From: an uncultured Acidobacteriia bacterium
GTDB lineage: Bacteria; Acidobacteriota; Terriglobia; Bryobacterales; Bryobacteraceae
DNA length: 57,049 nt
Direction of reading: 5' to 3'
NCBI GenBank assembly: GCA_903882645.1
Contig: CAIRXZ010000053.1
Coordinates: 1-57,049, forward strand
The translations under genes and the position numbers were made by a program. Below are positions 50-7,477 of the stretch, in pieces. Under the pieces are notes generated by a model. The model made no database searches, was not told the DNA's origin, and worked only from the letters and a program-made list of their open reading frames with translations. The stretch's first letter is position 1; each line of letters begins with the position of its first letter.

Positions 50-115
50 CGCCGTCTTCCTCGCGACCGCCGACTCCGAAATTAACTTAATGCGTGGTCT
101 GAATTCTGGGGTCCA
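1..115 (-). mobile_element. IS3-family insertion sequence, left part only
   Basis: Reading leftward, the ATPase gene on the minus strand runs into sequence starting TGGACCCC near position 115, which resembles the TG-starting terminal inverted repeats of IS3-family elements. About 65 bp further in, an OrfA-like transposase start follows. The element continues beyond the window edge, so its other end, the target duplication and the second transposase frame cannot be seen. The exact boundary (about 105-116) is inferred from where ATPase coding sense stops. Confidence 0.6.
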
Positions 116-395
116 CTATAATCACCTCCGTGTTAGCGAGCTTCGGAAACGCGTAAGCCTGCGCGAGCCGTTCACGCACAGCGGGATTGGTCAGCGCGTG
201 AGTCCAGAAGCTCTTGCCCACACCGCGATTGCCGATGACGAGTTGGCGTCTCATGTCGAGGACGCCACGGTGGCCATCCGGGAAAAAGACGCGCTCGAGC
301 TCAATCTCCTCGTTTGGCTCCACCCTCGGCGACATCTCGATGCCGGCCATTGCCTCACGGATGGGTGCCAGGTCGATACCCGCGTCGATGCTCAT
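87..395 (-). pseudogene. P-loop ATPase, truncated by the IS3 insertion
   Basis: Third gene of the left-edge cassette. It starts with ATG at 395, overlapping the stop of the ParA-like gene (ATGA). A clear Walker A motif, GNRGVGKS, is at residues 55-62, followed by FWTHALTNPAVRERL. After about 92 residues, at a strand reading TEVIIV, the frame enters the IS end and stops, so Walker B and everything after it are missing. The domain is incomplete, so this fragment is unlikely to work as an ATPase. The overlaps say it was co-translated with the two genes upstream. The parent family is not identifiable from this piece. Confidence 0.6.
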
Positions 396-1753
396 GCTTC
401 GTTCTCCGATCGATCCGGATTGACGTATCGGGTGGAGATGATCGAGTCGATGCTGTCCAGGAACCGACGATAGGGCTGCTCATAATAAGGCAGATCGAGC
501 TGCGTCGGCGCTCGAACTGGATCGAAATCGATGAAGTTTGAATCGAAAGGTATCACCAGCGGATAATGCGGCGCGTCTTTATCGTCAATACCGAAACTGA
601 TGGCATCCGGATCGGCTTGCTGGGTGTCGTCTTCGTCGTAAAGATTATCGGCGAAGATGCCATATAGTTCGTCGCGATACCACGCTGTTTTTTGGGAATC
701 TGGTACGGCTTTGGCCAAAACCGCTTTGAACAGGAGTCGCCATTCTGCCCGGGACCCCGCCGTGCGGGCACGTTGCGCGAGCAACTTCAGGGCCGCAAAT
801 AAAGCAGCGTATCCTTGAATCGTCTGCCGCTGCGCCGTGCCGAAAAACAGCACCGTCGCGCCCAGACCGAGAATGGCTGGCGCGGCAAGCTCGGAGAAGC
901 CGGCTCTGCTATCGACCAGCACGACGTCGTAGCTTTCCCGTCCGGCAAAGCGGTCAACCATTTCCGTGATTTGGGCGGGCACGGAGATCGAGTTCCCACT
1001 CGGGTCAATGTCTTCGATCATGGCCCGCGAAAGCTTGGCAAGAGTGTTGCCCGGATGGTCGATGGCGCTTCTGCCCAGCGCGGGCACGACATCGACACGT
1101 CCCCCGCCGGGACTCGTCAGAGTACTGGTCCCCACATACTCCTCAAGGGCTTGGTCGGGGATTCCACCCAAGCCATTCTCGACAAGGAACTCAACAGCCC
1201 CGAAGCGAGTCATACGCTCTTCATCCAGCAGCATGCCACCAACGCCGGGCGCCTCTAAGTCGAGATCAAAGATGAGAACATTCCTGTTGCGCCGCGCCAG
1301 ATCCGAGGCCGTCACAGCGAGTGCCGTCGACCTTCCAACCCCTCCTTTAAGACTGGCAAAGACAATTCGCGGCGGACCGGTTTTGATGTCTTGTGGAGAA
1401 TCGACCCAAGCCGATCCGACGATGCGCCTGTCGAGGAGACGAATGCTGTACCGGCCCTGTTTCACAGGAAACGCGGCAGCATCCTTCAGCAACCTCTGAA
1501 CCCCTGGCTCATCTCCAAAACCGATCACGCCCTCCGCTCGTGCGTAGGGACCGAGGCGGTCCGCCATCTTCTTCTCGATATCCGCACGCCGTTCGGCCGA
1601 AGGGGATTCCTCTGAACTGAGAAAGAGCAGGCGACCACTCGAGTCACGCACGATCAGCCCTTGCTCCAGCGCATCCTGGCCCAGTTGGCCGACGATCACT
1701 TCGACCAATGTGGGCAGGGATTCGTCAAAAACGACTCTGGTGGATTCACTCAT
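392..1753 (-). CDS. ParA/MinD-like ATPase with KGGVGR P-loop variant
   Basis: A 453-residue protein. Residues 136-142 read KGGVGRS, the deviant Walker A of ParA/MinD/SIMIBI ATPases, with the second lysine changed to arginine; the signature first lysine (K136) is kept. A Walker A'-like strand IFDLDLEAPG follows at about 161-170, and a Walker B-like strand YDVVLVDSRAG lies further on. The roughly 125-residue N-terminus is not a recognised domain. ATG at 1753 is preferred to the upstream in-frame start because it overlaps the previous stop as ATGA. From memory, databases carry a family called KGGVGR-motif variant AAA ATPase, often in defence-like neighbourhoods. The role here, energising or regulating the cassette, is inference. 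Confidence 0.75.
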   Translation of the reverse strand: MSESTRVVFDESLPTLVEVIVGQLGQDALEQGLIVRDSSGRLLFLSSEESPSAERRADIEKKMADRLGPYARAEGVIGFGDEPGVQRLLKDAAAFPVKQGRYSIRLLDRRIVGSAWVDSPQDIKTGPPRIVFASLKGGVGRSTALAVTASDLARRNRNVLIFDLDLEAPGVGGMLLDEERMTRFGAVEFLVENGLGGIPDQALEEYVGTSTLTSPGGGRVDVVPALGRSAIDHPGNTLAKLSRAMIEDIDPSGNSISVPAQITEMVDRFAGRESYDVVLVDSRAGFSELAAPAILGLGATVLFFGTAQRQTIQGYAALFAALKLLAQRARTAGSRAEWRLLFKAVLAKAVPDSQKTAWYRDELYGIFADNLYDEDDTQQADPDAISFGIDDKDAPHYPLVIPFDSNFIDFDPVRAPTQLDLPYYEQPYRRFLDSIDSIISTRYVNPDRSENEA

Positions 1754-2172
1754 ACTGTGTCCATTTGACCAATCAGTCCTCCGGCGGCCCCCTTCCACTC
1801 GTCCACCCAAGCAAGACGAATGTCCTTATCCGGAGCGTAGCGCATCGAAGTGTCCCAGTTCTGGAATAACCGCGGATCTTCCGATATCCGTCGCCGTTCG
1901 CCGGAGCGGCGCCCCTGTGCGGTCGCAAGCATCCTCTTCAACGCGGGGAAATGTGCGAAGAATGGATCGTCGCGACGATCCTTCTCAGGTAACGGCTTCA
2001 TGCCGCTGGCACGCATAAGCTCCTTCACGGCAAGTTCGCCCGCGATACCGAAGAGGTATCCGGCGACGGCCTTGCAGCGGGGCTGATCACCAGCGCCATT
2101 CTGTTCATAGAGGACCTGAGCCGATCTATAGTGGCGGCGGGCTGCCACTCTCACATTCAGCGAATACGCCAT
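1750..2172 (-). CDS. HEPN-like small helical protein
   Basis: A 140-residue, mostly helical protein, first gene of the cassette. Its layout matches HEPN domains: an N-terminal helix with RHYRSAQVLYEQ, the central helix pattern AGYLFGIAGELAVKEL, a later FFAHFPALKRML, and the terminal MRYAPDKDI segment that resembles the [M]RYP turn. I see no Rx4-6H ribonuclease motif, so if HEPN it may be a non-catalytic or divergent one. ATG at 2172 is chosen over the in-frame TTG at 2190 because homologous sense starts there and GGTGG lies upstream. The stop overlaps the next start (ATGA), implying translational coupling. Confidence 0.55.
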   Translation of the reverse strand: MAYSLNVRVAARRHYRSAQVLYEQNGAGDQPRCKAVAGYLFGIAGELAVKELMRASGMKPLPEKDRRDDPFFAHFPALKRMLATAQGRRSGERRRISEDPRLFQNWDTSMRYAPDKDIRLAWVDEWKGAAGGLIGQMDTV

Positions 2173-4656: not shown

Positions 4657-4804
4657 CTAAGGCCATTATTACCCGAATCGGGCGGCGGATTCGAGTGGGC
4701 GCGTGCGCGCATGCTGCGTCCTTGCGGAAATGCGCATTGCCTCCGACGATTCCGTTTCCGGCGGCTGGGGAATTTCGATACGGCGAGTGTTGTATGATTG
4801 GCAC

Positions 4805-5083
4805 ATGGAGACGGTTTCGGTAAGACTGGAGAAATCCGGCAGAATCCTCATACCTGCCGCAATCCGTCGGGAACTCAGCTTGAAGGAGGGTTCCGAGTTG
4901 CTTCTTCGCCTTAGCGATGCCGGCCTGCAGATTAGTACCCGCGGACAGGCCCTGGATCGGGTTCGGGCACGACTGCGGAAATACGTTCCGGAGGGTCGAG
5001 TCCTCTCTCAGGAACTGCTCGATGAGCGGCGCGAAGAGGCCGCCAGAGAGGATGCGCCGCTGATTCCGGAAAAGCAGCCCTGA
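4805..5083 (+). CDS. AbrB/MazE-like antitoxin, orphan
   Basis: A 92-residue protein. The first 45 residues form a SpoVT/AbrB swapped-hairpin DNA-binding domain: METVSVRLEKSGRILIPAAI, then RRELSLKEGSELLLRL. The tail, with LLDERREEAAREDAP, is the kind that wraps a VapC-type PIN toxin. ATG at 4805 is the family start; the longer frame upstream is not conserved in character. No PIN or MazF toxin follows: the next 363 bp are non-coding. It may be an orphan antitoxin, a lone regulator, or one that lost its toxin when the restriction gene arrived. Confidence 0.75.
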   Translation: METVSVRLEKSGRILIPAAIRRELSLKEGSELLLRLSDAGLQISTRGQALDRVRARLRKYVPEGRVLSQELLDERREEAAREDAPLIPEKQP

Positions 5084-5446
5084 CGGCCGGGCAGCGCTGG
5101 AGAGAATTGGCGGGCCGGAGGTTGTCTGGCGCTCCGGTTAGCGTCGAGCTGACCACCTAGGCACATAAGCCATTGAATCCATGAACATTGTGGTGTACAC
5201 TACGTTTCAGCGTTTGGGAAGGAAAAAGCCGCTTGATGTCCTCGTTGCTCGTAGGTTTCTTGCCGCCTGCTGTACGTGCTGAATCCGCCACCCCGGGGGT
5301 TGGTCGTTGCCCCGCCCCCTGAACGCAATCCGCCGCAAGGCGCAGGCCTTGGATGCCCTCGGAGGCATGGCCCAATTCGGGCTGGCTGCACCCCCTGTCG
5401 CGTGCGTTACGGCCAGCGACCAGTCCCAAGGGCTTCTGGACGATCA
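5084..5446 (+). other. Intergenic region before the restriction-modification gene
   Basis: I find no convincing gene. A 33-codon frame at 5181-5282 (MNIVVYTTFQRLGRKKPLDVL...) has the look of a transposase C-terminus but is too short to assign. The remainder is GC-rich leader to the methyltransferase gene. A short segment at 5126-5157 resembles one at 8901-8932 on the other side of the restriction gene (about 75% over 32 bp). Confidence 0.4.
5173..5201 (+). promoter_or_regulatory. Candidate sigma70 promoter upstream of the split RM gene
   Basis: TTGAAT (5173-5178) and TACACT (5196-5201) are separated by exactly 17 bp. This would give a leader of about 240 nt before the ATG at 5447. A GTGTACAC palindrome overlaps the -10 box. 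It is the only AT-richer promoter-like stretch in the gap; activity is not shown. Confidence 0.35.
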
Positions 5447-7477
5447 ATGAAATCGAAGCGCCGTTCAACCAACGAGATGGAATTCCAGGGCCAGGTCGTC
5501 ACGTGGCTCAACGAGAACCTCTCCAAGCACGGCGGCATGGGGCTTGAACGCGCTACCCAAGAAAAGCCCAGAAAGACCTCTGGAAAGCGGAACGATCTAG
5601 TCGTTTGGCAGTCGCGCATTGGCGAGATCGCGTTTCTCTCCATTGAGCTGAAGACGCCTGATACGCCGATTTCAGACCCCGTTTTTCTGGCGGATGCTGC
5701 TGAGAAAGCACAGCAATGGCATTCTCGGTACTTTGTCATCTGGAACATGCGGGAGGCGGAACTCTACCCAACTCCCGCCGGCATTGCGCGTATAACACCG
5801 GCGGACCGATTGTATCGGTGGGGTGCGTCAACGGGAGCAGATCAGCTAGTGGACTGGCTCAAGCCGGAAGTTGCAAAACGCCTGGAGCACCAGCTTCGGG
5901 AAATCCTCGACAGAGCTTGGAATCATTCCGTCGCGGGTGAGGGCGCTGCTGTCGCAATCGACACAGAGATCTTCGTTACGCGTATATCCGCGGCGATCAA
6001 CGCGCTTCGCGGGCTCCTTCATCGTCAGATAACCTCGGCCACAAAGGGCAGTCGTAAACTCCGAAGCACAATCAACAAGATCGCTATCGAGCAAGGCTTC
6101 ATGGGCTTTGTGGAGGACGTTGATTACGCTATCGCGGGCCAGATGGGGTATCGTCTCATAGGGCAGATTCTCTTCTACCTGGCCCTCCGCCGACAGCAGC
6201 CCGCGCTTCCCGCCCTATCCTTGTCCCGTGGTGACAAGGTCCCGGGTGCCCTGTCTGCCTACTGGAATAATGTCCGCCGCTTTGACTATGAGGCCTTGTT
6301 CAAACCGCACGCCCTCGACACCTTAGTGGAGATTCCAGCCTCCGGTCAATTCCTCATTAGGCACCTAATCGACCAGCTTGCCAGCTACGATTGGGCATCC
6401 CTAACGGACGACGTTCTGGGCTCTGTATTCGAGCGCCTAATTCCGCGCGAAGAGCAACTTCTCCTTGGGCAGTTCTATACGCCCCGCCCCGTCGCTGACC
6501 TCCTCGCCGCGCTGACAATCGAAGGCAGGCGACCACTCGTGCTCGACCCCGGCTGTGGGAGCGGCACCTTTCTCATGAGTGCCTACGACTTTATTGCCAG
6601 CCGAACCGGGCTGCGGCACAAGGACCTCCTAGCAACCATTTGGGGCTTTGATCTCAGCCCCTTCGCGGCTGAGCTCGCCGCGATCAACCTCTTCCGTCAG
6701 GACCTGTCAGAGTTCGAGAACTTCCCGCGCGTTGTCACGGGCAACTTCTTCGATCGTGACCCAGGGCAAACCGTGGAGTTCCCACCTCCGCATGTAACCC
6801 ACGACGACATGAGCAAGGTGCCAACGCCGATCCCCATCTTCGATTCCATCATCGGCAATCCACCGTACTTGCGTTCGCAGAACCAGGATGATCTGGATTC
6901 CAGATACCGCGCTCAGCTGTTTTCCGCAGCAGCTCGGGTCGGAATTAAGGCCCCGGCGAAAACGGATCTCTTCGCTTTTTTCATCTACCATGCCATGCGC
7001 TTTATGCAGGTCGGGTCCAGACTGGGGTTTGTGACACCGGCCAGCTGGCTGACCGCGGACTACGCCGTCACGCTCCAGCGACTCTTAACGCGCGAGCTGC
7101 GCCTGGTTGCAATTATTGCGTCAAATGCGGAGTCTCTTTTTCCCCAAGTCGATGTCAACGCCGCGCTTCTGGTCGCCGAGAAAGCCGCCCCTGAGGCGGG
7201 GCACGAGGGTAAGTCGCTGCTCCGATTCGTGACGCTCAAGGCGCCGATTGCGGCTCTCCTCGCGGGCTCCGGTGACTACTGGGACCGCATGGTCAAGCTG
7301 ACCGACCGAATCTATGATCCCGACAAGTCCTGCGAAGATTCTGATATCCGGATCACGATCGTTCCACTGGCGCAGGAGCGCGACGCACTCGCAGCAGCGC
7401 CAAAAAGCGCGCGTAATTGGTCCAAGTACTTACGCGCACCTCTGAGCTATTATACGCTTTTCGGGGGGGTTGCATAA
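5447..7477 (+). CDS. Type IIG-like restriction-modification enzyme, nuclease plus methyltransferase half
   Basis: A 676-residue N-terminal half of a fused enzyme. An N-terminal PD-(D/E)xK-type nuclease is suggested by D50 in NDLVVW and the ExK of SIELKTPD (E67, K69). The N6-adenine methyltransferase core has motif I DPGCGSGTFL from residue 367 and catalytic motif IV NPPY at 471-474, as in Eco57I-class enzymes. ATG at 5447 is chosen because the PD-(D/E)xK domain begins right after it. The frame ends at TAA 7475-7477 just past GGGGGGG at 7463-7469. Removing one G fuses it to the next ORF, giving about 1133 residues, so this is one gene in two frames. It would methylate and cut DNA; in this state it lacks its specificity domain. 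Confidence 0.8.
   Translation: MKSKRRSTNEMEFQGQVVTWLNENLSKHGGMGLERATQEKPRKTSGKRNDLVVWQSRIGEIAFLSIELKTPDTPISDPVFLADAAEKAQQWHSRYFVIWNMREAELYPTPAGIARITPADRLYRWGASTGADQLVDWLKPEVAKRLEHQLREILDRAWNHSVAGEGAAVAIDTEIFVTRISAAINALRGLLHRQITSATKGSRKLRSTINKIAIEQGFMGFVEDVDYAIAGQMGYRLIGQILFYLALRRQQPALPALSLSRGDKVPGALSAYWNNVRRFDYEALFKPHALDTLVEIPASGQFLIRHLIDQLASYDWASLTDDVLGSVFERLIPREEQLLLGQFYTPRPVADLLAALTIEGRRPLVLDPGCGSGTFLMSAYDFIASRTGLRHKDLLATIWGFDLSPFAAELAAINLFRQDLSEFENFPRVVTGNFFDRDPGQTVEFPPPHVTHDDMSKVPTPIPIFDSIIGNPPYLRSQNQDDLDSRYRAQLFSAAARVGIKAPAKTDLFAFFIYHAMRFMQVGSRLGFVTPASWLTADYAVTLQRLLTRELRLVAIIASNAESLFPQVDVNAALLVAEKAAPEAGHEGKSLLRFVTLKAPIAALLAGSGDYWDRMVKLTDRIYDPDKSCEDSDIRITIVPLAQERDALAAAPKSARNWSKYLRAPLSYYTLFGGVA
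7463..7469 (+). repeat. G7 homopolymer at the frame break of the RM gene
   Basis: Seven consecutive G lie between the methyltransferase and specificity halves. With seven, translation stops at 7475-7477. With six, TTC-GGG-GGG-TTG-CAT continues into the downstream frame without loss of homology. Such a tract can slip during replication (phase variation) or reflect a sequencing miscount. Confidence 0.75.

Follow-up and report, generated by a model that had tools for sequence, protein, structure and literature searches.

The 57,049-nucleotide stretch of DNA considered here (the window), from an uncultured Acidobacteriia bacterium, begins with what is left of a three-gene operon. At positions 87-2172, three ORFs lie on the minus strand and are joined by two ATGA overlaps, one between genes A and B and the other between B and a third ORF (Table 1), just as the first-pass annotation had described them. 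The trio matches all three PADLOC models of one system, in the same order and with overlaps: gene A matches PDC-M28A (3.6e-19, profile positions 6-125 of 138), gene B matches PDC-M28B (8.2e-100, positions 3-434 of 438), and the gene C fragment matches PDC-M28C (6.9e-17, positions 7-87 of 480 only). Across our alignments, window copies included, the M28C model is matched by 17/17 C sequences and the M28A model by 16/16 A sequences. These profile matches make it well supported that the trio is already catalogued, as A, B and C of the PADLOC candidate defense system PDC-M28, and the first-pass annotation, which did not recognize it as a named system, is corrected on this point.

Table 1. Features of the window and, in the last four lines, of the two-gene loci on virus-collection contigs (positions of the respective locus).
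Feature	Position	Strand	Description
Gene A	1750-2172	minus	140 aa; putative HEPN protein, PDC-M28A family
Gene B	392-1753	minus	453 aa; KGGVGR-variant ParA/MinD-like ATPase, PDC-M28B family
Third ORF	87-395	minus	102 aa; only 121-395 belongs to gene C
Gene C fragment	121-395	minus	PDC-M28C truncated after codon 91; Walker A retained
Insertion sequence end	1-120	minus	multi-copy; interrupts gene C
HigBA-like pair	2371-2992	minus	HTH_3 antitoxin (2371-2667) overlapping Gp49/DUF891 toxin (2648-2992); adjoins the trio
N6 adenine methylase, Eco57I type	5276-7477		N6_Mtase and Eco57I profiles; possible restriction-modification gene near the trio
Two-gene version, L060	6183-9424		weak coverage by PDC-M28 models
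Two-gene version, L062	6352-9517		weak coverage by PDC-M28 models
Two-gene version, L063	6258-9592		weak coverage by PDC-M28 models
Two-gene version, L064	6180-9496		weak coverage by PDC-M28 models

What cut gene C short? The first 120 bases are a repeat, and nine other contigs of this genome carry it almost in full at their ends, in matches that begin at base 1 or 3 and run to base 120-128; shorter matches occur as well. Across the eight contexts that were compared, the window among them, what all have in common stops at base 120, with up to four additional bases shared by a few individual contigs; this boundary indicates that the end of an insertion sequence interrupts gene C after its 91st codon. 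On the minus strand, a transposase-like ORF, perhaps of the IS3 type, starts at base 49, and positions 1-49 hold its first 16 codons; the 102-aa ORF takes its last 10-11 residues from the insertion sequence. The second P-loop NTPase reported earlier is therefore real in its Walker A motif, GNRGVGKS, but not as a whole gene: the fragment ends before Walker B, its C-terminal part is gone, and the window copy lacks about 80% of a protein that spans about 475-510 aa in relatives.

Searches of the organism's own assembly with the M28C model and with an intact relative's protein (E up to 10) returned only the window fragment. The rve_3 transposase domain was not found in this assembly either, so copies of the insertion sequence may have been collapsed or dropped; the remainder of C may be either deleted or merely unassembled. 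No second B was found in a search of the genome. The A-B-C order and tight linkage are preserved in the window, with both ATGA overlaps, but a full-length M28C is not, and the copy is therefore filed as a remnant: it is what remains of a PDC-M28 operon, a candidate anti-phage system, broken by a mobile element, and it differs from PDC-M28, itself a candidate, by the loss of most of C. According to the parts of two reports available to us, PDCs derive from a "guilt-by-embedding" screen and are mostly without experimental validation (PMC12988326, PMC11811056). The literature searched held no paper that uses the names PDC-M28 or KGGVGR and none on experiments testing PDC-M28; wider searches gave no description of the trio's parts or mechanism.

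Linkage of the three genes across replicons

The trio is seen on plasmids, on contigs of virus collections and on genome contigs, and across phyla. Among 396 genomes of the phylum, 10 have a B match at or below 1e-20, near full length in six (the window's genome included); the search gave 14 B matches, seven near full length (the window's own included) and seven short. Eight regions were taken from it, with L033 and L034 holding a B domain only; the short matches in G246 (twice), G059, G125 and G392:C81 were left out. On plasmids, the A-B-C order is found in 12/12 regions read from 22 matching records (in L037, C spans the record origin), with gaps of -4 to 80 bp between the trio genes wherever both are annotated; the records outside these 12 include H11 and H12, apparent copies of H10 by species, coverage and identity, and H15-H22, which cover 26-43% of B. 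In virus collections, all 13 loci with a near-full-length B, from 21 loci, carry the trio; L061 is cut by a contig end, and L065-L067 have a B domain only. There was no match among 50,697 phage records. When 33 loci are pooled (window, L011, L027-L032, L035-L046 and L047-L059), C follows B or is fused to it in every one, although the window has just a fragment of it; A lies ahead of B in 31. Neighborhood conservation, which the first-pass annotation had proposed to check, is thus found: the A-B-C order is kept in other replicons.

The exceptions are few. A is missing in L029 and L032 and is seen in L030 as a stop-to-stop frame. In L032 (6067-10839), B and C stand without A, and an upstream HATPase_c_4 (RecG C-terminal-like) protein may replace it. 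A Bryobacterales MAG (L011) carries a B that is 61% identical to that of the window and a whole C of 488 aa; in the MAG sequence, its gene A (5585-6004) has an in-frame stop after codon 50, with B and C open.

Two further observations bear on how the genes are tied together. First, pairwise distances correlate between A and B (0.86), B and C (0.87) and A and C (0.79), with 0/2000 shuffles as high; the comparison covers 26 trios, with the window, L011, L037, L032, L058 (a near copy of L057) and the fusions omitted, and the shuffles ignore relatedness. Such correlations are as expected if A, B and C were inherited jointly. Second, B and C are fused into one protein in L029 (921 aa) and L030 (1014 aa) and, more distantly, in L060-L064. 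Virus-collection contigs carry a two-gene version of the operon, in which a divergent HEPN-like protein precedes a B-C fusion of 895-945 aa; a weak A match lies immediately upstream of the fusion in L060 and L062-L064. That B and C are fused in these relatives suggests that they work together.

Predicted folds and conserved residues

Gene A was originally read as a HEPN-like helical protein with no obvious RNase motif. Window A alone matched no HEPN model in Pfam; over 16 A sequences, HEPN_AbiV was matched by five and HEPN by four at E up to 0.1, the best at about 5e-5, and a solved-structure sequence search with the A profile gave chance-like hits only. For the predicted model (mean pLDDT 85.5), rows 1-28 of the VIA-align ranking have Z 11.8-7.2, and most of those whose titles are informative belong to HEPN proteins, HEPN-MNT pairs or Csm6; helical proteins of other kinds begin at Z 6.8, level with one AbiV entry, although Z scores of 10-12 for a helical bundle are below the VIA-align caution level of about 13. 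Foldseek gave a weak match (E 0.069) and nothing under E 0.001 against the PDB, so the HEPN call rests on VIA-align, profile alignment and conserved columns. The A profile aligns with 25 PF05168 proteins of the same phylum over 110 columns at a probability of 93; 14 controls (ten column-shuffled and two reversed templates, and alignments with B and C) reached at most 0.5. AbiV was considered as the closest family and rejected, with seven proteins aligning over just 38 columns at a probability of 62. Prediction and profile alignment together support, short of proof, a HEPN four-helix fold in A, and the structural check suggested along with the first reading comes out in favor of HEPN.

If A is a HEPN protein, where would its active site be? 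The canonical Rx4-6H motif is absent: a His 4-6 residues after R111 is present in only 1/27 A proteins, and R67-x6-H74, which fits the pattern in window A and a few relatives, depends on an R67 that is not conserved. Four other residues, E46, K50, R111 and Y112, are invariant in 27/27 A proteins, and H74 is kept in 26/27. In a joint MAFFT alignment these fall on PF05168 columns with E in 22, K in 24, H in 25, R in 24 and Y in 25 of 25 proteins; by hhalign, the E, K, R and Y of A match those of PF05168, but H74 misses the PF05168 H by one column, next to a gap of ten residues. In the A model, H74 sits between helix 31-55 and helix 77-83. The Rx4-6H motif is not universal in the HEPN superfamily; AbiV and the AF0298 type keep the R without the usual H and conserve a different H, located between helices 2 and 3, that could be part of another active site (PMC3710099, in the sections available). 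A fits this AF0298-type description, appearing to keep the E...K...H...RY set of PF05168-type HEPNs. The first reading is thus supported on the fold, but it passed over a PF05168/AF0298-type residue set. With HEPN-T/PF05168 proteins such as AF0298 (2hsb), and with AbiV, A shares the fold, the helix-2 E and K, the H between helices 2 and 3, the RY pair and the lack of an H after the R; its sequence identity to AF0298 is low, at 10%, and AbiV is listed without operon partners in the available tables of PMC3710099, unlike A. The divergent A partners in L060 and L062-L064 keep E46, K50, H74, W106, R111 and Y112, with R13, H14 and G42 varying. Four other PF05168 HEPN matches are present in the window's genome (contigs C36, C55, C152 and C28), two of them with an internal stop.

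Gene B, annotated from the outset as a ParA/MinD-like ATPase with KGGVGR, lives up to that description: it carries KGGVGRS and scores 175.6 bits against NCBIfam AAA_KGGVGR (NF047398), for which the curated cut-off is 90. The nearest solved sequences are of the MinD, ArsA, Mrp and ParA types, mostly along the P-loop stretch. All 37 B homologs have KGGxGR[ST], with the signature lysine kept and the second K replaced by R, making the arginine the norm of the family; DxDx[DE][AS]PG is kept in 37/37 and DxRxG in 35/37. The deviant Walker A motif of ParA/MinD partition ATPases, KGGxxK with a catalytic lysine (motif table in PMC9178275, seen in part), is thus not found in B, which has Arg in 37/37; that table was the only item on ParA P-loop changes to emerge from our literature search. 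The family-wide change from lysine to arginine makes slow hydrolysis probable, with ATP still bound, and B may not hydrolyze ATP at all. Other conflict systems contain MinD/ParA-like domains that are predicted to be inactive (eLife survey, PMC7159879, as far as available).

Gene C can be judged from intact relatives. The model of one such protein (mean pLDDT 86.7) is matched best in VIA-align by two archaeal AAA+ ATPases, which we take to be STAND proteins, by plant NLR and animal CED-4/Dark proteins and by ORC/Cdc6, at Z 14.7 down to about 10 and an rmsd of mostly 5-7 Å; Foldseek puts ORC2 and BREX BrxC on top (E 1e-4). A solved-structure sequence search with the C profile gave chance-like hits only. 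GxRGxGK[ST] is present in 31/35 C proteins or fusions, the exceptions being four distant fusions. With Walker A, Walker B and a matching predicted fold, intact C is a STAND/ORC-like AAA+ ATPase as modeled; the ORC-like matches and the helix pattern make a C-terminal winged helix likely.

These assignments also allow a different division of labor, in which A would be a non-catalytic RNA or nucleotide sensor and B-C would load on DNA, like ParA and ORC/BrxC, to block phage or plasmid replication. B and C can be a single protein, A is absent in L029 and L032, C resembles ORC/Cdc6 and BrxC, and A lacks the canonical HEPN motif, all of which speaks for this reading; the six A residues that stay constant even in the divergent L060 and L062-L064, however, are more than one would expect of a mere scaffold, and we consider a DNA-acting B-C pair unlikely.

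Genomic neighborhoods and mobility

Three of the 12 plasmid copies (L038, L043 and L045) are embedded in BREX type 2 loci, flanked by genes such as pglW and pglX, in replicons of Streptomyces sp. NBC_01334, Candidatus Thiodictyon syntrophicum and Sphaerotilus sulfidivorans; for the remaining nine, the regions read contain no annotated BREX gene, and a scan of seven window ORFs next to the trio named no BREX family. PDC-M28 C is like BrxC by fold, and the BREX core is not known to include any of the three genes. HEPN proteins are among the embedded nucleases in a 2026 survey of BREX auxiliaries; the parts of it that were covered name no ParA-like partner of a HEPN protein (PMC12839542).

A tyrosine recombinase gene lies directly upstream of A in 5/12 plasmid loci (L036, L037, L040, L041 and L042, by annotation) and in 1/13 virus-collection loci (L049, by similarity), hinting at a small integrative unit. 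Other neighbors include a caspase-domain gene just upstream of the trio on the same strand (L028, 10927-11874), a DUF1156 gene (L027) and, downstream of the trio in L011 (8955-10436), a TIR-FGE gene, in which a TIR domain is followed up with a formylglycine-generating-enzyme-like one. All of these contexts, BREX and recombinase genes among them, are examples rather than a controlled enrichment. In the window itself, the higBA genes said to lie beside the trio are there (Table 1), but the "dead PIN module" is not recognizable as such: at 4703-5083 there is a MazE-like antitoxin ORF, followed by ~190 bp (to 5275) with stops in three forward frames and an unreadable toxin partner, and none of the seven window ORFs scanned has a PIN profile. 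Taken together, the neighborhoods point to defense and mobility. The initial reading of the trio as a defense or conflict operon holds, given the HEPN fold of A, the trio's presence across phyla and the copies inside BREX loci.

Could the operon serve mobile elements rather than their hosts? It might be an addiction or toxin-antitoxin module, with A as the toxin restrained by B, with or without C, that keeps a plasmid or prophage in place and is involved in phage defense only incidentally. Copies on plasmids and virus-collection contigs would fit, and a toxin-antitoxin role has been proposed for another HEPN family, MAE_18760, encoded with a ParA/Soj ATPase; as in PDC-M28, its HEPN gene adjoins that of a ParA-like ATPase, but no third AAA+ gene comparable to C is described in the available text (PMC3710099). 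Pfam holds a model for the MAE_18760 HEPN family, which is not among the matches of the 16 A sequences. The pattern of gene loss is harder to reconcile with addiction: the window has lost C with A and B open, and L011 has a stopped A with B and C open. Loss of C next to an open A and B suggests, from these two cases only, that C is no required antidote of A. Embedding in BREX-2 points to defense, and we regard addiction as rather unlikely. Still more distant, and to our mind very improbable, is a role outside defense, in which the operon would serve mobile elements for partition, maintenance or regulation. The likeness of B to ParA, the plasmid and virus-collection locations and the tyrosine recombinase upstream of six copies speak for it; on the other side, no ParB is annotated in the 12 plasmid regions read, some copies lie within BREX-2 operons, and B has an arginine where partition ATPases have their P-loop lysine.

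A proposed sensor, relay and effector

The most economical model has C as the sensor, B as the relay and A as the HEPN effector. Intact C, a STAND/ORC-like AAA+ protein, would be the switch, sensing either infection itself or that a primary defense such as BREX has failed. B, which probably binds ATP, dimerizes and hydrolyzes slowly, would be a relay or latch tied to C. Once released, A would be the HEPN effector: using E46, H74 and R111 as its alternative catalytic residues, it would cut RNA, and growth would stop. We give about an even chance to the reading of the locus as a remnant of a mobile, candidate anti-phage PDC-M28 operon working in this way; within it, the identity of the operon is well supported, and the protein families, gene order, fusion, conservation and truncation are observed, whereas we infer that C senses, that B relays and hydrolyzes slowly, and that A is an RNase that arrests growth. 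A more specific version is possible but on the doubtful side: a new kind of tripartite abortive-infection machine, in which the STAND/ORC-like sensor and the arginine-P-loop ATPase, fused in some species, form one unit, and the ATPase is a non-cycling ATP latch that frees a HEPN RNase with a non-canonical active site as a backup for when BREX fails.

The window copy is a dead example and matters solely as a lead to intact copies. What the analysis offers for those is a fold and a testable role for each gene, tied in A to three residues, in B to the P-loop arginine and in C to the AAA+ switch, together with natural knock-outs: C lost in the window, A stopped in L011. If right, the model would reveal a new way of controlling HEPN effectors and would add another second-line module to those inside BREX loci.
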